This document shows positions 53 through 9,991 of a stretch of DNA of 36,241 bases, one piece after another. The stretch's first letter is position 1. Each line of letters begins with the position of its first letter. Origin of the DNA: an uncultured Lachnospiraceae bacterium (GTDB taxonomy: Bacteria; Bacillota; Clostridia; Lachnospirales; Lachnospiraceae); contig CACWLA010000029.1 in assembly GCA_902761665.1 (NCBI GenBank), positions 1-36,241 on the forward strand. The letters run 5' to 3'. A program made the position numbers and the translations under genes. Below the pieces are notes generated by a model. It saw nothing but the letters and a program-made list of their open reading frames with translations, was not told the DNA's origin and did not search any database.

Positions 53-94
53 ATGTACCCCCTTTGCTGGTGTTGTCCAGTAAAGGGGGTACAT
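53..94 (-). repeat. Inverted repeat at IS end, can sequester transposase RBS
   Basis: The arms 53-70 and 77-94 pair over 17 of 18 positions around the loop TGTTGT. In a transcript entering from the upstream operon (same direction, minus strand), the hairpin would bury the AAAGGGGG ribosome-binding site a few bases before the transposase start. Insertion sequences such as IS10 are known to limit translation from impinging transcripts in this way; that it happens here is an inference from the fold. Confidence 0.6.
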
Positions 95-129: not shown

Positions 130-303
130 TTATTCAGGGATATCTTCTCTTTTGACTTCGACCGTGATCTTCGGCGTGCCGTAGGCGGGATCGAAAAGCC
201 CTGCGATGTGTGTCAGGTACCATTCCTGCAGCGCCGCTTCGTCCAGCTCGCAGCGCTCACCCTGCGTGACGATGGTCACTGTCGCGGTGATTCTTTCTTC
301 CAT
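130..303 (-). CDS. Small conserved-looking protein of radical SAM operon (57 aa)
   Basis: A 57-codon frame begins at ATG 303-301 behind a good ribosome-binding site (AAAAGGAGA, 5-6 nt away) and ends with TAA at 132-130. The product starts MEERITATVTIVTQGE and ends ITVEVKREDIPE: acidic, with two beta-strand-like segments flanking a predicted helix (residues 19-33) and a single Cys18. It begins 25 nt after the stop of the Cys-Ala tail protein, so it is very probably the third gene of that operon. I do not recognise a family. Size and position would suit a helper or recognition protein for the radical SAM system, but nothing in the sequence proves that. Confidence 0.65.
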   Translation of the reverse strand: MEERITATVTIVTQGERCELDEAALQEWYLTHIAGLFDPAYGTPKITVEVKREDIPE

Positions 304-327
304 GGTGTTCTCCTTTTCCCAAATGTC

Positions 328-1614
328 TCAGGCATTTTCTTTCCGCTTGCTGTCGATCCGGACGCGGCCTTCGTGGATGCTTTCCTTAAAGAAATCCTTC
401 ACGGAGCAGCCGGCGCGGCCGGAGGAGGCGCAGGCGCAGGCACAGGCGCAGGATGACGCGCAGGCGCAGTGCGATGCGCAGGCACAGGACGACGCGCAGG
501 AGGAGTGGTGCGATCCGCCGCCGGAACGGGTGCCGCCGCCTCCGCCTGAACGCGGCACGCGGACGGGAATGTTCACCACGTTGACGCGGATATAAGTGTT
601 CGGGGAATCGCCGTAGCGGTAGGTACCGGTGTTCGTGTAGCGTTCGGGCTTTTCGATCTGGCTTTCCTCGACCACTTCCTTGCTCTTGATCATGCTGCGG
701 CCGCAGTAGGCGCAGTTGTCTTTGCCCTCCTCACGCGGCATGCCGCAGCCCGGACAGAATTCATAGTATTCGATCTTCGTGCGGGTGATCTTCTTCTCGG
801 TCTTCGTTTCTGTACCGAAGCCTGAGCCGCTGAAGATGTACTTGAAGAATTTGACGACCACGATGATCGGGATGAAGATGACAGCCAGGGAAATGATTCC
901 GCCGATGATTCCCGCGATGATCTCGAAAGGATCCGAGGTGCTCGGTTCGGGATCGATGATGGGTGTGCTGCCGCCGCCTCCGTCAGCCTGGCGGTCGGGC
1001 GAGAAGCCGAAGGTATCGTTCGCGTACACGACGCTCATCGTATAGCGGCCGCCCGGGGAAAGGCTGTCGCGGAAGACCAGGTAACCGTCTTCCTGTGAGC
1101 AGTCGGGCTGCCAGGCGCCGGCTTCATCTGCATTCCAGCGGATCACGAGTTCGTCGACGGAGAAATCATCGAACCAGGCCGGCGTGAAGGTGTAAACGGT
1201 TTCGCCTTCCACCCATTTGTCGATCTGGTACATGTGGTCCTGGACCATGGAAAATTCAAACGTGACGATCTCGTTCTTGCTGTAGCCGCGGTCAAGATAG
1301 ATCGCAAGTTTGCTGCCGTTGTCCTTGATGCGTGAAATATTGGTGGTTATTGCAAAGATATCTTCGTGGTATTTGTTCGGAACGCCGAGGTCGATCCATT
1401 CCAGCTTTTCCTTGCCGCCGTTATCGTACAGGACCTTCCATTCGATGTGGTAGGTCATGAGGAGGGAGGCGTCGTCGTTCACGTCAACGGTGATCGTGAA
1501 GTTCAGGATCTCATCGGTCGGTGCGGCCTGCGCTTTCGTTCCCGGAAGCAGGAGAGCGATGAACAGGACTGCTGCAAGAAGCAGGGCTTTCGCGGCCTTG
1601 TTAACGGTTTTCAT
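328..1614 (-). CDS. Membrane protein with zinc ribbon and Cys-Ala-rich cytoplasmic tail
   Basis: The protein has 428 residues from the ATG at 1614-1612, chosen for its AAGGAGG site; the frame stays open 8 codons further upstream. Visible in order: a signal peptide (1-30, cleavage near AQA/AP), an extracytoplasmic beta-rich domain (about 35-205), a Gly/Pro linker, one transmembrane segment (about 231-256), a cytoplasmic zinc ribbon (Cys287, 290, 301, 304), a Gly/Ser-rich stretch and a tail from 371 to 403. Ten cysteines in the tail (373, 377, 379, 383, 385, 389, 391, 393, 395, 403) are mostly spaced by single alanines. The last 25 residues are charged. The start overlaps the stop of the radical SAM gene (TGATG). 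I infer that the tail is the substrate of that enzyme; the topology places both in the cytoplasm. The N-terminal part may be related to DUF2207-like proteins, uncertain. Confidence 0.85.
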   Translation of the reverse strand: MKTVNKAAKALLLAAVLFIALLLPGTKAQAAPTDEILNFTITVDVNDDASLLMTYHIEWKVLYDNGGKEKLEWIDLGVPNKYHEDIFAITTNISRIKDNGSKLAIYLDRGYSKNEIVTFEFSMVQDHMYQIDKWVEGETVYTFTPAWFDDFSVDELVIRWNADEAGAWQPDCSQEDGYLVFRDSLSPGGRYTMSVVYANDTFGFSPDRQADGGGGSTPIIDPEPSTSDPFEIIAGIIGGIISLAVIFIPIIVVVKFFKYIFSGSGFGTETKTEKKITRTKIEYYEFCPGCGMPREEGKDNCAYCGRSMIKSKEVVEESQIEKPERYTNTGTYRYGDSPNTYIRVNVVNIPVRVPRSGGGGGTRSGGGSHHSSCASSCACASHCACASSCACACACASSGRAGCSVKDFFKESIHEGRVRIDSKRKENA

Positions 1615-3011
1615 CAGCAGTACCTCCTTAACGGACACTCGCCGGTCATTGCGGACGAGAAGCTTCTGCGCTCACGGCAGACCTCGCTGTTCCAGATCGT
1701 TTCCCAGTCGTCGGTGAGCATGTTGCCGAGCGGGGCATCGGAGAGCCAGCTCTGGCAGGGAACGACGTTGCCGCCGGGCGTGACGGCCATGTTGGAGAGG
1801 CAGGCGCCGCAGGACGGGGAAGGAATGTTCAGTTCGTCGAAGACCTCCTGGCGGATCCAGCCGGGCGATGTGAAGGCGATCTCCATGCCGTTTGCGTGGC
1901 AGTAGGCGACGGCTTCGCGCAGGATCTTCTCCAGTTCCTCACTTGAAAGCTGCAGGGTCTCGGACGGTTCTTTCGCTGCGTTGCCGGTCGTGATCATGCC
2001 GGAGCAGGTCACGTAGATGACGCCTTTTTCATGCAGGTATTCGAGCGTTTTCACGTAGTCGCGGTTCAGGGTGCAGAGCGGGGTATTGATGCTGACGGAC
2101 AGGCCTTCGGCCAGGGCATTGCCGATACCGGCCGCCGTGTTTGCGAACTGCGGCGCGCCGACGAGCTTGTTGTGCACCTCGGGATCGCAGGAATAGAAGG
2201 TGATCTGGACGCTGTCCAGCTCCGCTTCGTGCAGTTTCCGGCAGTATTCCGGCGTCAGCTTGATGCCGTTCGTGTTCAGACGGGAGATGAACCAGCGCGC
2301 GTCGTGGATGAGTTCGAACAGGTCCTCGCGCATGGTCGGTTCGCCGCCCGTGAAGGTCACCTGCGGGATGCCGGCTGTTCGGCATTTCCGAAGGATCGTT
2401 TTCCATTCCTCGGTCGACAGCTCCGCCTCGTCAGCGTGGATCTGGCCGGCCGCGTAGCAGTGCACGCATTTCTGGTTGCAGTGCCATTTGCCGTCCTTCG
2501 TCATCGCGCTGACCATCACGTCCATGCGGTGCGGGGCGTTCATTTCGTCCGCGTATTCGCCGAGGCTCATGTAGTGGATCTCTGTCGTGACCGGTTCGCG
2601 GTACGCGATCTGCTTCAGCGTGGTGTAGATGGTGAAGATGTCGTTCCGGATGCGTTTCTTCGAAAGGACCGGAATGATCCCCTTCACGCTTTCGGCAGTC
2701 CTTTCCAGGATGTTCTGTACGTCCTTCTCACCGATCTCCTTACCGTCGTAGCTGTTCGTCATGCGGATCATCTCGGCAAGGATGACGGCATACACGAAAT
2801 TCACCGGCACGACGTCAGTGCCGTTCACGATCGCGATGCTCGGGTTAAGAACGTTTTCTTCCTTTTTCGGCGGGATCAGATGGATGCGGATCGCGCCCGG
2901 ACCGTTCGGATTCAGCGTGGTGTGCAGGACTTCGTTGAACATCAGGTCCATGTACTCCTGGATCTGCCGGACCGATTTGGTCTTGCGGAATAGTTTCGGT
3001 ATGGTGATCAT
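1614..3011 (-). CDS. Radical SAM/SPASM-type maturase
   Basis: The 465-residue protein carries the 4Fe-4S radical SAM motif C178-x3-C182-x2-C185 and the SAM-binding GGEP at 222-225. Its C-terminal region has Cys401, 404 (CGAC), 419, 445, 459 and 465, the pattern of a SPASM/twitch domain holding auxiliary iron-sulfur clusters. Residues 1-165 are an extra N-terminal domain that could bind a peptide substrate (RRE-like role), not recognised with confidence. SPASM enzymes commonly modify ribosomal peptides or protein side chains (sactionine and other thioether links, formylglycine). The neighbouring Cys-Ala tail protein, translationally coupled through TGATG, is the obvious candidate target. Translation starts at ATG 3011 with AGGAGG only 4 nt upstream. 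It has its own promoter at 3047-3075. The exact chemistry cannot be read from the sequence. Confidence 0.85.
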   Translation of the reverse strand: MITIPKLFRKTKSVRQIQEYMDLMFNEVLHTTLNPNGPGAIRIHLIPPKKEENVLNPSIAIVNGTDVVPVNFVYAVILAEMIRMTNSYDGKEIGEKDVQNILERTAESVKGIIPVLSKKRIRNDIFTIYTTLKQIAYREPVTTEIHYMSLGEYADEMNAPHRMDVMVSAMTKDGKWHCNQKCVHCYAAGQIHADEAELSTEEWKTILRKCRTAGIPQVTFTGGEPTMREDLFELIHDARWFISRLNTNGIKLTPEYCRKLHEAELDSVQITFYSCDPEVHNKLVGAPQFANTAAGIGNALAEGLSVSINTPLCTLNRDYVKTLEYLHEKGVIYVTCSGMITTGNAAKEPSETLQLSSEELEKILREAVAYCHANGMEIAFTSPGWIRQEVFDELNIPSPSCGACLSNMAVTPGGNVVPCQSWLSDAPLGNMLTDDWETIWNSEVCRERRSFSSAMTGECPLRRYC

Positions 3012-3046
3012 GTTGCCTCCTGACGGGTCTGTTTTCTTTCACTGTT

Positions 3047-3075
3047 ATTATAAAGGGCGGACGTCTTCGTGTCCA
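3047..3075 (-). promoter_or_regulatory. Sigma-A-type promoter of radical SAM operon
   Basis: On the minus strand, TGGACA (3075-3070) and TATAAT (3052-3047) are separated by 17 nt, a near-consensus promoter about 36 nt before the radical SAM start. The -35 box and the spacer lie inside the inverted repeat at 3052-3081, so the dyad may double as operator or as terminator of the preceding gene. Confidence 0.65.
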
Positions 3076-3081
3076 CCCTTT
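3052..3081 (-). terminator. Dyad between flippase gene and radical SAM operon (terminator or operator)
   Basis: The arms AAAGGGCGGAC (3052-3062) and GTCCACCCTTT (3071-3081) pair over 11 positions with one G-T. On the minus strand the hairpin is followed by TTTATAATAA, a poor U-tract, so termination of the flippase transcript would be only partial. It overlaps the promoter of the next operon. Confidence 0.5.
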
Positions 3082-3084
3082 GAT

Positions 3085-4089
3085 TCATATGCTTTCCTTC
3101 TTCTTTTTTCCGCCGATGAGGATCAGGAGGATCCCGACGGCGATGCAGGAAAGGTCGCGTATCCGGAAGATCAGACCACCCATGACAGCGGTCTCCATGT
3201 CGAAGCCCAGACAGGCAAGGGCAAGTACGATGCCGCCTTCGCGCGTTCCGGCCTGCATCGGGATCATGAAGAGGAGGTTCCCGATGAGAGAGGCGAAGGT
3301 CAGTACGAGGATACCGCCGCTGAAATGAATGTTGATCCCGAGATAAAGAAAGATCAGGAAATATTCCACGGCTTCCAGCAGGCGCGTTGCATATTCCAGG
3401 AGCACTGCCTTGTACAGCCGGCCGCGGTCCGCGCAGAATTCGGAATAACAGCTGTCCGTTTCTTCGAGCGTGTCACGGTGCTTTTCCGCGAGCCCTGCGA
3501 TCTTTTTTCCGACGAGCGGGAGCTTCGCAAAGAAGCTGACGGCAGGGACAACAAAGCCTCTTTTCTTTTTGCGGAAAAAGTAAATGACGACTGTGAGCAG
3601 GAGCAGCGCAGCGATGATCAGCAGTACGGTGGTCAGGGTGTTTCCGGGACAGCCGAGGGCGAAATAGACGAGAGCCCCGGTGATCCAGAGCAGCATGTGC
3701 CCGATCATGTGGATCAGGTTGAAGGTCATGGCGGAGGAAGCAGCCTTCCCGGCCGGCATGTATTCCTTCAGCTCAAGGATGCGGTAGGGTTCACCGCCCA
3801 CGATCCCCGCCGGCGTGACGTTGTTGATCGCAAAACCGGAAACGCAGATCCGGTACATCCGCGGGAAACCGACCGCGGACGCGGCTTCCTTTCCCATGAT
3901 GAGCAGGTAGACTGCGGTATGGATCGCATAAATGACCGCCCAGAGAAGCAGCAGACCGAGAAGCAGCAGGGGCAGGCGCGGGGTGAACAGCTCACTCCAG
4001 TCCGACTTATCGGGGACCGCCTTGACGGCAAGCAGAACGATGCCGCCGATCCCGATCAGAAAGAACAGGATACGGTATCTGGTCTTCAT
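3085..4089 (-). CDS. LPG-synthase TM / UPF0104-type flippase-like membrane protein
   Basis: A 334-residue polytopic membrane protein with about eight hydrophobic segments, ending in a basic KKKKES tail. The sequence FAINNVTPAGIVGGEPYR (about residues 91-108) and the later MIPMQAGTREGG are the conserved Asn/Pro/Gly- and Arg/Glu-containing loops of the lysylphosphatidylglycerol synthase transmembrane family (PF03706), the flippase half of MprF without its synthase domain. It probably moves a polar lipid across the membrane. Its ATG overlaps the stop of the CDP-alcohol phosphatidyltransferase gene (ATGA), so the two are coupled. This suggests it handles the lipid made by that enzyme; the substrate itself is unknown. 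Confidence 0.8.
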   Translation of the reverse strand: MKTRYRILFFLIGIGGIVLLAVKAVPDKSDWSELFTPRLPLLLLGLLLLWAVIYAIHTAVYLLIMGKEAASAVGFPRMYRICVSGFAINNVTPAGIVGGEPYRILELKEYMPAGKAASSAMTFNLIHMIGHMLLWITGALVYFALGCPGNTLTTVLLIIAALLLLTVVIYFFRKKKRGFVVPAVSFFAKLPLVGKKIAGLAEKHRDTLEETDSCYSEFCADRGRLYKAVLLEYATRLLEAVEYFLIFLYLGINIHFSGGILVLTFASLIGNLLFMIPMQAGTREGGIVLALACLGFDMETAVMGGLIFRIRDLSCIAVGILLILIGGKKKKESI

Positions 4090-5135
4090 CGGCCGGCTCC
4101 GCCCTTTCTCCAGCCGGAGCGTTTCGCGTCTTCCGGGAAAAACTCGGTCAGGATGCGTCCGGTCATGGCCTCATAGCGGGCCATCATGGCGTATTTCAGG
4201 CCTTCCAGCACGACGCAGACAAAGAGGAACCAGAAGATCTCCTTTCCGAAGAGCAGCAGAAGAAAGAGGATATAAGTCCTGAGGTTGAAGCCCAGGGTAT
4301 TGGTGATCTGGATCACTTTGCGGCTTTCGCGGATATAGCGTTCGGCGAGTTCTTCCGGGATGACGCCGCCGTTCTCATCGATCTTATCCAGCAGGTGCTG
4401 CGTCTGTTTTGCGCCTTTTTCCTGCACGGCAGTGTAGAGCAGGTAGATCTTCAGATAGAGTTTCCGGAACGGGGAAGTTCCCTCCGGAAGGGAGGCAAGC
4501 TCCTGCCGCAGATCTTTTGAGCGTGCGAAATAGTTGTCGTTCGTACCCTTCAGAAAATACAGGTGCAGGCCGCGGTAGTAGTCCGCTTTTCTGGCCTGAG
4601 AGGAGTGGCAGATGAGAGCCAGGACAATGACGATCCAGATGTACCAGGAAACGTGCAGCGTGACCGTCGGCGTAACGTCAAAGGATTCGCCCATCAGCCG
4701 GAAACCGAGCGCCAGATAGATCGCCAGATAGTTGGCCATGTCGACGGCGCCGTCAAGGACCCGTCCGAACGGGGTGCCCGAGTGGCAGAGTCTCGCGACC
4801 TGGCCGTCCGAGCAGTCAAGGACTGCCGCAAAAATGATCAGGGCAACGCCCAGCAGATTAAGACCGACTTTCTGCGGATACAGCAGGGCGGCGCCGGCCA
4901 CGCCGAAAACGAGGGACAGGAGCGTAACGGCGTTGGGGGACCATTTCATCCTGATGAACAGCGTGGTCAGCCGGATGGCGAGAGGGTCGTAAACGAAGAC
5001 GTCAAACGGGTCGTCCGTCTCGCTGGACTTGCGGGAAGCCTGAATGTCCTCCTTGAATTTCTTCGCGCGGGCAGCGGCGGCCTCCTTGATCTCTTCTATG
5101 TTGATCAGTTTGTCTGTGTTATGACGGGTACTCAT
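4086..5135 (-). CDS. CDP-alcohol phosphatidyltransferase family protein
   Basis: A 349-residue membrane enzyme with the complete family signature D107-x2-D110-G111-x2-A114-R115-x8-G124-x3-D128-x3-D132, which binds CDP-lipid and two metal ions and transfers the phosphatidyl group to an alcohol. The start is ATG 5135-5133 behind GGGAG, although the frame stays open 47 codons further upstream. It is longer than housekeeping PgsA (about 190 aa). It has an extra charged N-terminus of about 50 residues and a central soluble insertion (about 190-260) between membrane segments. The acceptor alcohol (inositol phosphate, glycerol, other) cannot be told. It is coupled to the flippase-like gene downstream, and a promoter lies at 5175-5202. 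Confidence 0.85.
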   Translation of the reverse strand: MSTRHNTDKLINIEEIKEAAAARAKKFKEDIQASRKSSETDDPFDVFVYDPLAIRLTTLFIRMKWSPNAVTLLSLVFGVAGAALLYPQKVGLNLLGVALIIFAAVLDCSDGQVARLCHSGTPFGRVLDGAVDMANYLAIYLALGFRLMGESFDVTPTVTLHVSWYIWIVIVLALICHSSQARKADYYRGLHLYFLKGTNDNYFARSKDLRQELASLPEGTSPFRKLYLKIYLLYTAVQEKGAKQTQHLLDKIDENGGVIPEELAERYIRESRKVIQITNTLGFNLRTYILFLLLLFGKEIFWFLFVCVVLEGLKYAMMARYEAMTGRILTEFFPEDAKRSGWRKGGAGR

Positions 5136-5174
5136 GATTTCTCCCTGCAATGCCTGTGGCAATAATACCTTTCC

Positions 5175-5202
5175 ATAATAGCGAATAATCCGGAAAAGTA
5201 AA
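5175..5202 (-). promoter_or_regulatory. Promoter of the CDP-alcohol transferase/flippase pair
   Basis: Minus strand: TTTACT (5202-5197), 16-nt spacer, TATTAT (5180-5175), about 40 nt before the start codon at 5135. It lies downstream of the terminator at 5250-5282, consistent with an independent transcript. Confidence 0.5.
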
Positions 5203-5245
5203 GCGAAAACGCAGGTCCGGCCGCAGAAAAAAGGAATTATCTGCA

Positions 5246-5282
5246 CGAAAAAGGCATGTGCCCGTGAAAGACACATGCCTTT
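5246..5282 (-). terminator. Rho-independent terminator after the 5307-5945 gene
   Basis: A perfect 11-bp stem (5250-5260 with 5272-5282, AAAGGCATGTG arm) is followed on the minus strand by CTTTTTCG. It ends the transcript of the two-gene unit 5307-7044. Confidence 0.8.
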
Positions 5283-5306
5283 GCCCTGTCCGGCTGGCGG
5301 GGCATG

Positions 5307-5945
5307 TCAGGCCCACTTGTCCTCGGAGACCGGGATGCGGATGTCCATGAGCAGTCCCTGGAACACCCAGATGAACCATTCGCCGGTGGAAGGTTTCCTG
5401 CGCAGCTGGATCTGGCGGGGGTTGTCCGCGCCGCCGCTCACCACGTACAGATACAGGTAGTTCTCGATGTCGCGGCTGTTCGGATACTCCACCATTTCGA
5501 CCGTCCAGGGATCCTTCGGTTTGTAATCGTTGGCCGGTTCCGCGCCTTTAAAATACGAGCGGATCAGATAGTCGCTGTCCGAGAGACGTTCTTGCATCAT
5601 CTGCAGTTCGAGGTTCGAGACCTCTTCCGGCCCCTTCAGTACGCTGAGCATGGCCTTGCCGTCTTCCTGATCGCTGACGAAGCGGAGCAGGGCGGCGACA
5701 GTAAAGGCGGCGACGGCGTACTCATCCTTCTGGTTAAAGTTTGGCATCGCCTTCATTTCTTCAACGTTCTGCGGGAGCTTTTCGAACTTCACGGTCTTGT
5801 GCTTGACGGAAGCCTTCTGCTTCGCATTCTTCACCGCGCTGTCGATGCCGCTGCTGATCCCGTTCTTCACCTTGACGGCGCCGCTGTGCAGGACGCCCTT
5901 CGCCGCTGCGCCGAGTCTTTTCATTAAGTCATCCAAAAGAGCCAT
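5307..5945 (-). CDS. Uncharacterised protein (212 aa), possibly DUF6935-like
   Basis: A soluble protein without signal peptide. It starts MALLDDLMKRLGAA, has a Lys/Ala-rich helix (about 1-50), a helical middle (about 60-125, including FNQKDEYAVAAFTVAAL) and a beta-rich C-terminal part ending around a WFIWVFQGLLMDIR segment. I recall proteins of this shape in gut Clostridia grouped as a domain of unknown function (perhaps DUF6935), but I cannot confirm the family. It starts behind a GGAGG site 23 nt after the ATP-grasp gene and is probably cotranscribed with it; a strong terminator follows. No catalytic motif is visible. Confidence 0.75.
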   Translation of the reverse strand: MALLDDLMKRLGAAAKGVLHSGAVKVKNGISSGIDSAVKNAKQKASVKHKTVKFEKLPQNVEEMKAMPNFNQKDEYAVAAFTVAALLRFVSDQEDGKAMLSVLKGPEEVSNLELQMMQERLSDSDYLIRSYFKGAEPANDYKPKDPWTVEMVEYPNSRDIENYLYLYVVSGGADNPRQIQLRRKPSTGEWFIWVFQGLLMDIRIPVSEDKWA

Positions 5946-5967
5946 GATCGTGTCCTCCTGTCAAAAA

Positions 5968-7044
5968 TTATTGCTTAAAGACTTCCCGCAGGATCGCTTT
6001 GGTATCTTCCCCGAACAGCGGTCCGTTGTTCAGCTGATGAAAGTCGATCTCACCGTCATAGAAATTGGCTTCGATCAGGACGGGCTCGCCGTCTTCCCGG
6101 AGCGCGATGTCCCAGGAGACCAGCCGGAAATGCGGGATCCGCAGGGCTGCCTTCTCTACGAAAGCGATGATCTTATCCATCCCGGGGATGACGATATCCT
6201 TAAAGGGAAGGCCGCTTGTCGGGTGATCCAGAAGCCGCTTCCCTGCATTGACGTAGGAATAGTATCCGGCTTCCGTGCAGTGACCGTCAAAACCAACGCC
6301 GCAGGTGATGCCGCCGCTGGAGGCGTTGTCGACCTTTGCGCCCGCAATGCCCATCCGCAGGATGATCGAGTAGATCTTTACGCTCCCGTCCGGCCGCAGC
6401 AGGGACAGCGCCCGGATCGTATTCACGCTGGATTCGTTGACCCGCGCCAGTGCCGGATGCTGCTTCAGCGCTTCCTGCACGACGATGTCCACTTTGATCC
6501 TGCCGACGGCTTCCCAGAACAGGCTGACGGCGTCTCCGGACTCGCCGGAAACGTAATACACGCCCTTTCCGCCGTAGGAATTGGTGGCTGCCTTGATGAA
6601 CATGGAGGAACGGCTCCAGATCAGGTCATCCATGGCTTCCCGGCCGATCGGAAGCCCTTCGGCGTCGAACCAGATACCGTTCAGCCGCTTCAGGTACGTC
6701 TTCGGCATCGCGATGCCCGCGAACAGATAGTCGTAGTAGCATTTGTTGTCCAGAAAACGGGCTTCCTTCGTGTTGTTGAAATACGGGTCGATATAGATGT
6801 AGTAAAGGTCTTCGGGGATGTATTCCCTGCGGAACACGCCGGATTTATCCTTCAGATAATTGTGATAGACGGTGTTGATGGTCTTCCCGGTCGTATTGCG
6901 GTAAAACAGGACCGCTTCCTTCTTTTCGTCTTCGGTCAGAACGTTTCCGCTTGCATTCTTTCTGGCCCGTTCAGCGAGACGCTTCGCCGTACCGGCTCTG
7001 CGGCGGTCCCTGAGGATCTTTCTTATCGGATCAAGACTGATCAT
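5968..7044 (-). CDS. Sugar-transfer-associated ATP-grasp protein
   Basis: A 358-residue enzyme with the layout of the ATPgrasp_ST family (PF14397): a basic N-terminal region, then ATP-grasp lobes. Recognisable parts are FIKAATNSYGGKGVYYV (about 150-166, Gly-rich ATP loop), VVQEALKQHP, the NTIRALSLL strand, SGGITCGVGFDG, and the metal/ATP-binding WDIALREDGEPVLIEANFYDG near the end (D, E, N ligands). Members of this family occur in polysaccharide and surface-modification clusters and probably join a carboxylate to an amine or hydroxyl; the substrate is unknown. It is divergent from the N-acyltransferase gene at 7241 and has a consensus promoter at 7081-7109. Confidence 0.8.
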   Translation of the reverse strand: MISLDPIRKILRDRRRAGTAKRLAERARKNASGNVLTEDEKKEAVLFYRNTTGKTINTVYHNYLKDKSGVFRREYIPEDLYYIYIDPYFNNTKEARFLDNKCYYDYLFAGIAMPKTYLKRLNGIWFDAEGLPIGREAMDDLIWSRSSMFIKAATNSYGGKGVYYVSGESGDAVSLFWEAVGRIKVDIVVQEALKQHPALARVNESSVNTIRALSLLRPDGSVKIYSIILRMGIAGAKVDNASSGGITCGVGFDGHCTEAGYYSYVNAGKRLLDHPTSGLPFKDIVIPGMDKIIAFVEKAALRIPHFRLVSWDIALREDGEPVLIEANFYDGEIDFHQLNNGPLFGEDTKAILREVFKQ

Positions 7045-8035: not shown

Positions 8036-9991
8036 ATGAAGAACCGTAAGAACCGAATGCTACCGGCCTTGCTGGCAGCTGTCCTGATGCTGTCTTCGTG
8101 CGCGCCGGCCGTAAGGCCGTCCGCATCGCAGCCCGCCTCGGAAAGCGAAACGGCGGCGGTGACGCCGGCATCTTCTTCGGAAGCCGAAAAGAGTACGGCG
8201 GAAAACGTTCCGGAAACGCAGCCGGCGGAAAGCGTTCCGGAAACGCAGCCGACGGAAAAACCTTCGGTCCCTGAGACGGCACCGACGGAAACGGAGCCTG
8301 AGACCCGCCCGACGAAAGAGAACCAGAGCGGACGGACACCGAAGGGATATTCGGTGCAGTTCAGGACGCCTTACGGGGAGGCTCCCGAAGCGCAGCAGGT
8401 GCCGAAAGGGGGACTTGTCACGGAACCTGCAGAGATCCCTGTGCCCGGAAAGACCTTCGCAGGCTGGTACCGGGAAGGCATCGGCGGCAGGTGGAATTTT
8501 GACGAAGACAGGGTCACGGAACCCGTGACGCTGATGGCTGTCTATACGGATCCCGTGCCCCGCGCAGCGGGCAGGCTCAACCTGCATGACATCGGCAGAA
8601 CGGCTGCCGAACTGAAAGGGACCCATGCGGCGGTCGTGATCTTTATCGGCTATACTGACGGCATCGTTCCCGAAAAAGACCGGTATGAGGCTTTCTTTGC
8701 GGGGGATTACGGGCAGGAAAAGGCCATGGATTCGCTCTCGACCTATTTCAGGCTGAATTCCTACGGCAAGGTCTCCATGGAATTCTATTTCCATTATTAT
8801 GATACCGGCATGAGCTGCAGGGAGGCATACGATTATACGGAAGATGCCGGGAAAGCCATGGAACTGCTTTATGATGGGTTCCGGGAATTTCAGCAGGCGT
8901 ACGACGGGGATCTGAGAGATTGGGACCGCAACGGCGACGGCTATGTGGACATGCTGTATTTCATATCCTGTGAGGATCCGGCAAAAACTATCGGGAACGG
9001 AAAGAACCGCTACATTTACGGGGCCGGAGCAACGCCGACGGAAAACATTCCGCCGGATCCGGAAAGACCGGTCATTCATACCTATTCCAAGCTGGCTTAC
9101 TTTGACATGCTGAAAGAGATCCTTCCCGGAACTTCCCTGGGAGGCCTTCGCATCCTGATCCACGAAACTGGGCATATCTTCGGCCTGGAGGATTATTACA
9201 ACAGCAAAACAAAAGAGGGAGAAAACGATTTTGAAACGCTGGGCATGTACGACATGCAGGCATTTGATATGGGAGACTGGAATGTCTTTTCCCGCTTTGC
9301 CGCCGGCTGGCTGGATCCCTATGTGATCGACGGGACGATGGATGAAGTGACGCTCAGGCTCGGTTGTTCCTCCGAAGTCCCGGATGCCGTGCTGATCCCG
9401 ACGGCGGCCGGCTGGAACGGAACGGCTTTTGACGAATACATCCTGATCGACGTAATGGCGCCGTATGCGGCGAATGCCCTGGACTGGGAGCGTCTGTGTC
9501 AGCTGCCGCTCGTGCAGCCGGATGATCCGCGTATTGCGGGCGGTGTCCGGGTCTATCACGCGGACGGCCGGCTGGTACGGGCGGAAATCGGCGCAACGGC
9601 TGTTTACACGCCTGTCAACACGTATGAAGAGATCCTTGCGGTCACGCAGGAGCAGCACGTCTGGCTGTGGCGGCGTTTCCTGAATTCCGACGGATATGAA
9701 CCGAAGCTGCCGGAAGATTCCTTCGGGAAGCATCAGATCGAGATCGTGCCTTCGGACGGCAGCGGCCGCTTCCGCGGGAAAGATCAGATCATGTTCTGGC
9801 AGGCGGTTGATTCCCTGCTGGTGAACGACCTCTTCGGTCCCGGGGACGTCTTTTCCATGGAGAAGTGCGCGGGTGCTTTCGTAGATGAGCCGCTGATGAA
9901 TAACGGTTCATCCCTCGATTACGAGATGACCGTAGACTTTTACGATCCGGAGGCGCGCGAAGCCGTCATTACGATCCGGAAGATCCGCTGA
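8036..9991 (+). CDS. Lipoprotein M6-type metalloprotease with InlB-like repeat
   Basis: A 651-residue surface protein. The ATG at 8036 is chosen for its AAGGAGG site and the typical lipoprotein signal that follows (MLPALLAAVLMLSSC, lipobox Cys22). A Ser/Thr/Pro/Glu-rich stalk follows (about 23-95) with a duplicated 27-bp unit encoding VPETQPAES/VPETQPTEK. Next come a Listeria-Bacteroides (InlB B-type) repeat (about 98-165, with KTFAGWYRE) and the protease domain. Zinc site: H376-E377-T-G-H380-x2-G383-x2-D386, the HExxHxxGxxD form of M6 immune-inhibitor-A-type peptidases. DRNGDGYVD (about 302-310) looks like a calcium loop. It is predicted to act on external proteins while anchored to the membrane. 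A strong terminator follows. Confidence 0.85.
   Translation: MKNRKNRMLPALLAAVLMLSSCAPAVRPSASQPASESETAAVTPASSSEAEKSTAENVPETQPAESVPETQPTEKPSVPETAPTETEPETRPTKENQSGRTPKGYSVQFRTPYGEAPEAQQVPKGGLVTEPAEIPVPGKTFAGWYREGIGGRWNFDEDRVTEPVTLMAVYTDPVPRAAGRLNLHDIGRTAAELKGTHAAVVIFIGYTDGIVPEKDRYEAFFAGDYGQEKAMDSLSTYFRLNSYGKVSMEFYFHYYDTGMSCREAYDYTEDAGKAMELLYDGFREFQQAYDGDLRDWDRNGDGYVDMLYFISCEDPAKTIGNGKNRYIYGAGATPTENIPPDPERPVIHTYSKLAYFDMLKEILPGTSLGGLRILIHETGHIFGLEDYYNSKTKEGENDFETLGMYDMQAFDMGDWNVFSRFAAGWLDPYVIDGTMDEVTLRLGCSSEVPDAVLIPTAAGWNGTAFDEYILIDVMAPYAANALDWERLCQLPLVQPDDPRIAGGVRVYHADGRLVRAEIGATAVYTPVNTYEEILAVTQEQHVWLWRRFLNSDGYEPKLPEDSFGKHQIEIVPSDGSGRFRGKDQIMFWQAVDSLLVNDLFGPGDVFSMEKCAGAFVDEPLMNNGSSLDYEMTVDFYDPEAREAVITIRKIR
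8207..8260 (+). repeat. 27-bp tandem duplication in lipoprotein stalk
   Basis: Two adjacent 27-bp units beginning GTTCCGGAAACGCAGCCG (8207-8233 and 8234-8260) encode two nine-residue VPETQP repeats. They keep the frame and lengthen the stalk. Confidence 0.8.

Follow-up and report, generated by a model that had tools for sequence, protein, structure and literature searches.

In a stretch of 36,241 nt from an uncultured Lachnospiraceae bacterium (assembly GCA_902761665.1, contig CACWLA010000029.1; hereafter the window) we found a gene for a radical S-adenosylmethionine (SAM) enzyme coupled to a gene for a membrane protein with a Cys-Ala tail. The two genes occur together in some bacteria of the gut and the environment, in Bacillota and Chloroflexota, they lie nearly always side by side, and the enzyme clade and the type of tail evolved jointly. 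The tail is very probably a substrate of the enzyme in some way. On balance we also favour a more specific reading, in which the two proteins are an enzyme-substrate pair and the anchored tail is modified, most likely to thioethers.

Co-occurrence and adjacency of the enzyme and the tail protein

Two samples were searched, 299 genomes of the window's family and 251 genomes of Chloroflexota. The tail protein matched 29 family genomes, 24 of them with the Cys-Ala motif. The remaining five (G043, G073, G082, G241 and G254) gave weak, partial matches without the motif and had no enzyme alongside. A separate search with the enzyme (E<=1e-60) found 24 of the 299 genomes, and this set was identical to the 24 motif-bearing ones. 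When the enzyme of an Anaerolineales locus (L105) was used as a query in the Chloroflexota (E<=1e-70), it was present in 16 of the 251 genomes. The tail protein matched 17, namely the same 16 and G732, which carries a sister type. This match was single and near full-length in 15 of the 16 genomes and in two pieces in G828. The earlier note on this DNA had named a tail widespread without the enzyme as evidence that would speak against its reading, and such a tail was seen in 0 of 24 tail-bearing family genomes and 0 of 16 in the Chloroflexota. If the genomes were independent, identical sets would arise by chance with a probability of 6e-36 (family) and 1e-25 (Chloroflexota), but these values are not true probabilities since the genomes are related. 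A query of 32 tail residues alone found 16 of the 299 family genomes, all within the enzyme-bearing 24; its negatives have limited weight because it missed eight of the 24, the window's own genome included.

The two genes are also neighbours. We compared 77 loci from a genome collection, 74 of Bacillota type (L031-L104), L105, L106 and L107. The tail protein adjoined the enzyme in all 74 Bacillota-type loci (tblastn); the motif was shown in 68 and the other six end before the tail. The pair was found in L105 and not in L106, while L107 is a weak archaeal enzyme match (E 1e-14), and its genome gave no tail protein. When 299 genomes of the window's phylum were searched with a profile, 11 enzymes matched at E<=1e-60, the window's among them, and each of the other ten adjoins an open reading frame (ORF) with a Cys-Ala tail (that of L114 is cut by the contig end). 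In the new Chloroflexota loci (L123-L137), a tail ORF ending in CACACAGGGR was present in 15 of 15. A named strain, Roseburia inulinivorans DSM 16841 (L093), has the pair as well.

The ectodomain type was found without a tail in two loci, L152 and L154, and no ORF in these stretches (8 and 9 kb) matched the enzyme profile. In L152 (2942-5578) a fusion protein combines the ectodomain type with a protein kinase and an FGE-sulfatase-like domain, and in L154 (4002-5756) it is followed by a transmembrane segment and no tail.

Conservation of the tail and joint evolution

No part of the tail protein is under stronger constraint than the tail itself. Among 12 orthologues the codon differences in the tail were synonymous in 155 cases and non-synonymous in 19; for the ectodomain the counts were 612 and 565. 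The non-synonymous share was thus 11% in the tail and 48% in the ectodomain; it was 76% in the linker and transmembrane region and 53% in the rest. Since the codon differences are mostly synonymous, the tail is kept as a protein sequence and not as a DNA repeat. The conservation extends to Ala, Gly and Arg positions besides Cys. The small number of non-synonymous changes, together with the recurrence of the motif in two phyla, argues that the tail is not a product of chance.

To the tail types we compared an enzyme tree, for which 135 rows were reduced to 129 of sufficient length, to 82 after near-copy removal and to 72 without second copies and untyped rows. On this quick tree the six tail types change five times, which is the minimum possible and therefore indicates joint inheritance, as expected of a functional pair. 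In the phylum, the tail ends in GGxGAGC in group f55, and in groups f14 and f19 GGCT stands at the very end. The tail is the end of the protein in Chloroflexota, f14 and f19, while further variable residues come after it in f1 and f55.

The locus in the window

The three minus-strand ORFs at 130-3011, the first two joined by TGATG, were reproduced from the sequence as the earlier note had described them (Table 1). In the overlap, the enzyme stop TGA occupies 1616-1614 and the tail-protein start ATG 1614-1612. The ORF list starts the tail-protein frame at an upstream GTG, and we counted its 428 aa from the ATG.

Table 1. Features of the enzyme and tail-protein genes in the window
Feature	Position	Strand	Basis
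Radical SAM enzyme with C-terminal SPASM/twitch domain, 465 aa	1614..3011	-	ORF, Pfam, 24 aligned relatives, AlphaFold2 (AF2)
Enzyme N-terminal region, aa 1-165, candidate recognition (PqqD-like) domain for ribosomally synthesised and post-translationally modified peptides (RiPPs)	2517..3011	-	AF2 model, Pfam matches of relatives
C-x3-C-x2-C motif, SAM-binding [4Fe-4S] cluster, C178 C182 C185	2457..2480	-	Alignment
SPASM/twitch cluster region, C401 C404 C419 C459	1635..1811	-	Pfam, alignment
TGATG stop/start overlap of the enzyme and tail-protein genes	1612..1616	-	Sequence
Membrane protein with Cys-Ala tail, 428 aa, candidate substrate	328..1614	-	ORF, hydropathy, AF2, homologues
Signal-peptide-like N-terminal segment	1501..1614	-	Hydropathy; AF2 helix 6-22
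Extracytoplasmic beta-rich domain	1000..1515	-	AF2, Foldseek, DUF2207 matches in relatives
Transmembrane helix	832..930	-	Hydropathy; AF2 helix 229-261
Zinc-ribbon-like CxxC-CxxC motif, predicted cytoplasmic side	703..756	-	Sequence; Zn_ribbon_3 in relatives
Cys-Ala tail, ten Cys, ends GRAGCSVKDFF	388..498	-	Sequence, invariant columns, codon test, pLDDT

The third ORF (130-303, 57 aa) had been counted as part of the system. Among the loci compared, it was found elsewhere only in L031 (95% identical) and it is missing in L088, whose enzyme is 96% identical, so we rejected it as a third component. The enzyme and the tail protein, which the earlier note had also grouped, hold as a two-gene unit: no third gene of at least 100 aa is widely conserved beside the pair in 58 loci, where the next commonest neighbours were an antisense ORF (9 loci) and an ABC ATPase group (7 loci). 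Upstream partners were rejected as well; in the 74 loci L031-L104, many of which have short flanks, we counted a flippase-like protein in 4, a CDP-alcohol transferase in 4, DUF6935 in 2 and an ATP-grasp protein in 4. Carriage by phages was rejected, as the two peptide patterns searched in viral contigs found no relative there, and carriage by plasmids, as there was no plasmid match at E<=1e-30. The window begins at contig base 1, and the view on that side ends past the 57-aa ORF. There, near the contig start, an inverted repeat GTACCCCCTTT...AAAGGGGGTAC (window 55-92) was noticed by eye; the terminator scan did not report it.

The radical SAM enzyme

The reading of the first gene as a SPASM-type radical SAM enzyme was borne out, as Pfam matched both Radical_SAM (PF04055, E 1.3e-20) and SPASM (PF13186, E 4.6e-8, 33.7 bits against a cut-off of 21.5). 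The three cysteines of the CxxxCxxC motif are Cys in 25 of 25 aligned enzymes. In the SPASM/twitch region C401, C419 and C459 are kept in all 25 and C404 in 22. The L105 enzyme has a Cx2Cx5Cx3C array before the last Cys, which is absent from the window enzyme in the alignment. Because of the missing array, the window enzyme looks like a one-cluster twitch enzyme and appears to lack the full set for two auxiliary clusters that defines a full SPASM domain. The assignment of its individual cysteines to clusters is our assumption.

In the AF2 model of the enzyme (predicted local distance difference test, pLDDT, 86) the N-terminal region consists of strands followed by helices. Nine Chloroflexota relatives, including one of the sister type, were scanned with Pfam, and a PqqD domain was matched in all nine. 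The top Foldseek match was SkfB (6efn, E 3.2e-14), followed by SuiB entries, 5wgg, which we take to be CteB, anSME, BlsE, MoaA, TigE and PqqE. SkfB was also the best match in the profile search (E 8.2e-27).

For NCBIfam, the results for the window enzyme cover the best 25 of 60 families. The best model was NirJ2, with 107 bits against a cut-off of 500, and no curated family was reached. Membership in the heme d1/AhbD families was rejected since the scores are far below the cut-offs. No cut-off of a known maturase was reached either (StsB 54.9 of 625 bits, SkfB 48.4 of 300; PapB 62 of 340 for the L115 enzyme). The enzyme-tail pair is named by no model in the libraries searched.

In L105 a second, degenerate radical SAM copy without CxxxCxxC (8054-9205) lies in the same cluster as the intact enzyme. 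The motif was absent from seven of the seven second copies examined in Chloroflexota.

The tail protein and its topology

The tail spans aa 373-409 and its ten cysteines are arranged mostly in C-A steps. The hydropathy scan called a signal-like N-terminal segment and one transmembrane segment, which agrees with the single-pass membrane protein described before. In the AF2 model (pLDDT 77, predicted TM-score 0.50) the ectodomain is confident, the transmembrane segment is a helix and the tail is disordered, with pLDDT <50 across residues 356-410.

The protein had no Pfam match at E<=1, and its sole NCBIfam match (FEA1_rel_lipo, E 0.24, 10.1 bits against a cut-off of 250) is meaningless. DUF2207 (PF09972) matched 14 of 32 relatives at E<=0.1 and not the window protein; the tail protein of L151 passes the cut-off of this family (25.5 against 24.4 bits). 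Zn_ribbon_3 matched six of the 32 relatives at the same threshold. The sequence search gave no convincing solved relative. The Foldseek relatives, M1 aminopeptidases and oligosaccharyltransferase subunits, were rejected as partial only, with query TM-scores of 0.24-0.32 among the best 50 rows.

A cytoplasmic tail is probable, because positive residues favour the side after the last transmembrane segment; it is less certain in f14, where a second segment comes after the ectodomain. In 106 of 122 tail ORFs (114 distinct) the positive charge is higher after than before this segment; there were 14 ties, three of them without a transmembrane call, and two reversals.

In L096 (4072-5999) two tandem tail proteins lie upstream of a single enzyme, and the second has Tyr in place of one Cys of the alternating run.

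Proposed mechanism and alternative explanations

We propose that the membrane protein would be synthesised with a signal peptide; its beta-rich domain would lie outside, followed by one membrane helix and by a Cys-Ala tail in the cytoplasm. The cytoplasmic radical SAM enzyme would dock on this protein, in relatives through a PqqD-like recognition domain, and abstract hydrogen atoms from tail residues. The Cys sulfur would most likely be joined to a carbon of a nearby Ala or Ser, which gives sactionine-type thioethers. The modified tail would then stay on the membrane protein and would not be released as a peptide, and its role would perhaps be metal or redox binding. The thioether chemistry is the most likely one and at the same time the weakest step of this scheme. 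It is suggested by the nearest structures, which are thioether-forming or other peptide-modifying enzymes, and by SkfB, whose domain is likewise of the twitch type and which can use Ala as an acceptor, from which the alpha-hydrogen is abstracted (PMC8326336).

Several observations weigh against this proposal. The natural acceptor residues given in the parts of PMC8326336 consulted do not include Ala. Pfam did not match PqqD in the window enzyme, and its N-terminal region resembles the PqqD domain of the relatives weakly (hhalign probability 20%, E 0.0011). The Foldseek superpositions are loose, with query TM-scores of 0.43-0.57 and root-mean-square deviations of 4-16 over the first ten. Among the NCBIfam models, those for heme (NirJ2, AhbD) and MoaA outscore the peptide maturases, so peptide chemistry is not proven by the family. 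Genome G595 (locus L106), outside both samples, encodes an enzyme with PqqD and SPASM that is 51% identical to that of L105, and no tail protein was detected at the locus or in the genome. G796, the genome of the tail-less L152, carries the pair elsewhere on the same contig. A DUF5131 gene (PF07505, E 1.1e-40), of a family that we take to be radical-SAM-like, lies close downstream of the tail-less ectodomain gene in L154 and is unmatched by the enzyme profile. As to topology, a second hydrophobic segment past the ectodomain could put the tail outside in the f14 proteins L115-L117, and three segments were called before the tail in 24 of the 122 ORFs; in some cases the calls had split the signal segment.

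The tail could instead be modified by another radical reaction, for example by epimerisation of alternate residues to L-Cys/D-Ala or by another C-H modification. The strict Cys/Ala alternation suits a reaction that proceeds position by position, L-Cys/D-Ala alternation would set all Cys side chains on one face, and the radical SAM protein YydG was found by the enzyme profile search, albeit weakly (E 1.1e-4). Epimerases, however, need a hydrogen-donor Cys, and beyond the SAM motif and the C-terminal cluster region no Cys is kept in 25 of 25 enzymes, which leaves no further invariant residue as a donor; SkfB, SuiB and 5wgg also rank first among the structural matches. We consider this route unlikely, and somewhat less likely still that the tail stays unmodified and binds a metal or Fe-S cluster, working with the enzyme as a sensor, cluster carrier or electron donor. 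Such a role would agree with the Cys-rich tail, with the zinc-ribbon motif that adjoins it in part of the relatives and with the fact that the modification itself is our deduction. Yet the conservation of Ala, Gly and Arg exceeds what metal binding alone would seem to need, the enzyme clade and the tail type change together, and the relatives have a PqqD recognition domain.

Even less credence can be given to the tail as a RiPP core that a protease and an exporter encoded elsewhere would cleave and release. Its Cys-rich part is C-terminal as in RiPP cores, and it is the very end of the protein in Chloroflexota, f14 and f19, but variable residues follow it in f1 and f55 and the rest of the protein is large, conserved and membrane-anchored. 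Neither a protease nor an exporter is widely conserved beside the pair in the 58 loci, where the ABC ATPase group occurs in seven. That a low-complexity tail came to lie by accident beside an unrelated metabolic radical SAM enzyme would fit the higher scores of the heme and molybdopterin models, but it is hardly credible, since the same 24 of 299 and the same 16 of 251 genomes hold both tail and enzyme, adjacent to each other in nearly every locus.

Relation to known systems and significance

A classical RiPP system consists of a short precursor with a leader, a protease and an exporter, whereas the pair has a 428-aa membrane protein and no widely conserved third gene in the 58 loci. The ACGX system (TIGR04340) is alike in its radical SAM/SPASM enzyme, and its NCBIfam title names a repeat motif; its partner is presumably a Cys-repeat peptide. 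It differs in that the L105 enzyme scores 62 bits against a cut-off of 400, and for the window enzyme the model is not among the 25 best-scoring of 60 families. As described in PMC11002830 and PMC8326336, the sactipeptide and ranthipeptide maturases (SkfB, AlbA, CteB, PapB) are also SPASM/twitch radical SAM enzymes beside Cys-rich substrates, but the precursors there are short peptides, and here the models for StsB, SkfB, AlbA and PapB score far below their cut-offs if they match at all. QhpD, which we compared by description, is a radical SAM enzyme that makes intra-protein thioethers in a protein forming part of the final enzyme, but it cross-links Cys to Asp and Glu (PMC11002830).

The closest published parallel that we found is a proposed system in which MNIO (DUF692) modifies the Cys-containing tails of TIGR04222 membrane proteins (PMC12452194). 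There too, unstructured Cys-containing C-terminal regions on membrane proteins, encoded beside a peptide-modifying iron enzyme, are the proposed substrates. The enzyme there is an MNIO and here a SPASM/twitch radical SAM enzyme. The TIGR04222 tails are Ser/Gly-rich with Cys, predicted periplasmic and on proteins with several transmembrane segments, while those described here are Cys-Ala tails with a predicted cytoplasmic position. In Table 3 of PMC12452194, MNIO genes are missing from 490 of the 1372 genomes that have TIGR04222 genes; in contrast, a Cys-Ala tail without the enzyme was unseen in the genomes sampled. NCBIfam did not match TIGR04222 in the window tail protein, and the match to the sister tail protein of L151 is weak (E 5.9e-5, 22.8 bits against a cut-off of 43). 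Pfam found no DUF692 among the seven window proteins at 130-7044, where the contig start truncates the downstream side; neighbours elsewhere were not searched for DUF692. In the literature, no radical SAM enzyme paired with a membrane protein of the Cys-Ala or DUF2207 kind was found in the titles and abstract openings among the matches listed, with most subscription papers outside this scope. RiPP mining mostly targets short peptides, so it easily overlooks enzymes whose target is the tail of a large membrane protein.

A sister system was found in Chloroflexota (L151, 1477-5794; L153, 962-5308). It combines the same kind of membrane protein, here with a long CHSAC-repeat tail, with its own PqqD/radical SAM/SPASM enzyme and a third ORF, which in L151 is coiled-coil-like by weak Pfam matches. 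We see an even chance that the enzyme-tail pairs form a class of their own across Bacillota and Chloroflexota. In such a class the enzyme would build a multiply cross-linked Cys-Ala appendage at the cytoplasmic end of an anchored, receptor-like protein, and this appendage would stay there as a lasting functional element (metal, redox or signalling) instead of being released as a natural product. The sister systems with CHSAC tails and their own enzyme would then be a second branch of the same strategy. The pair is minimal, with two genes, tightly linked and present in a named strain, and it gives a clear testable prediction. Together with the MNIO/TIGR04222 proposal (PMC12452194), it suggests that modifying enzymes dependent on iron act recurrently on Cys-rich tails of membrane proteins.

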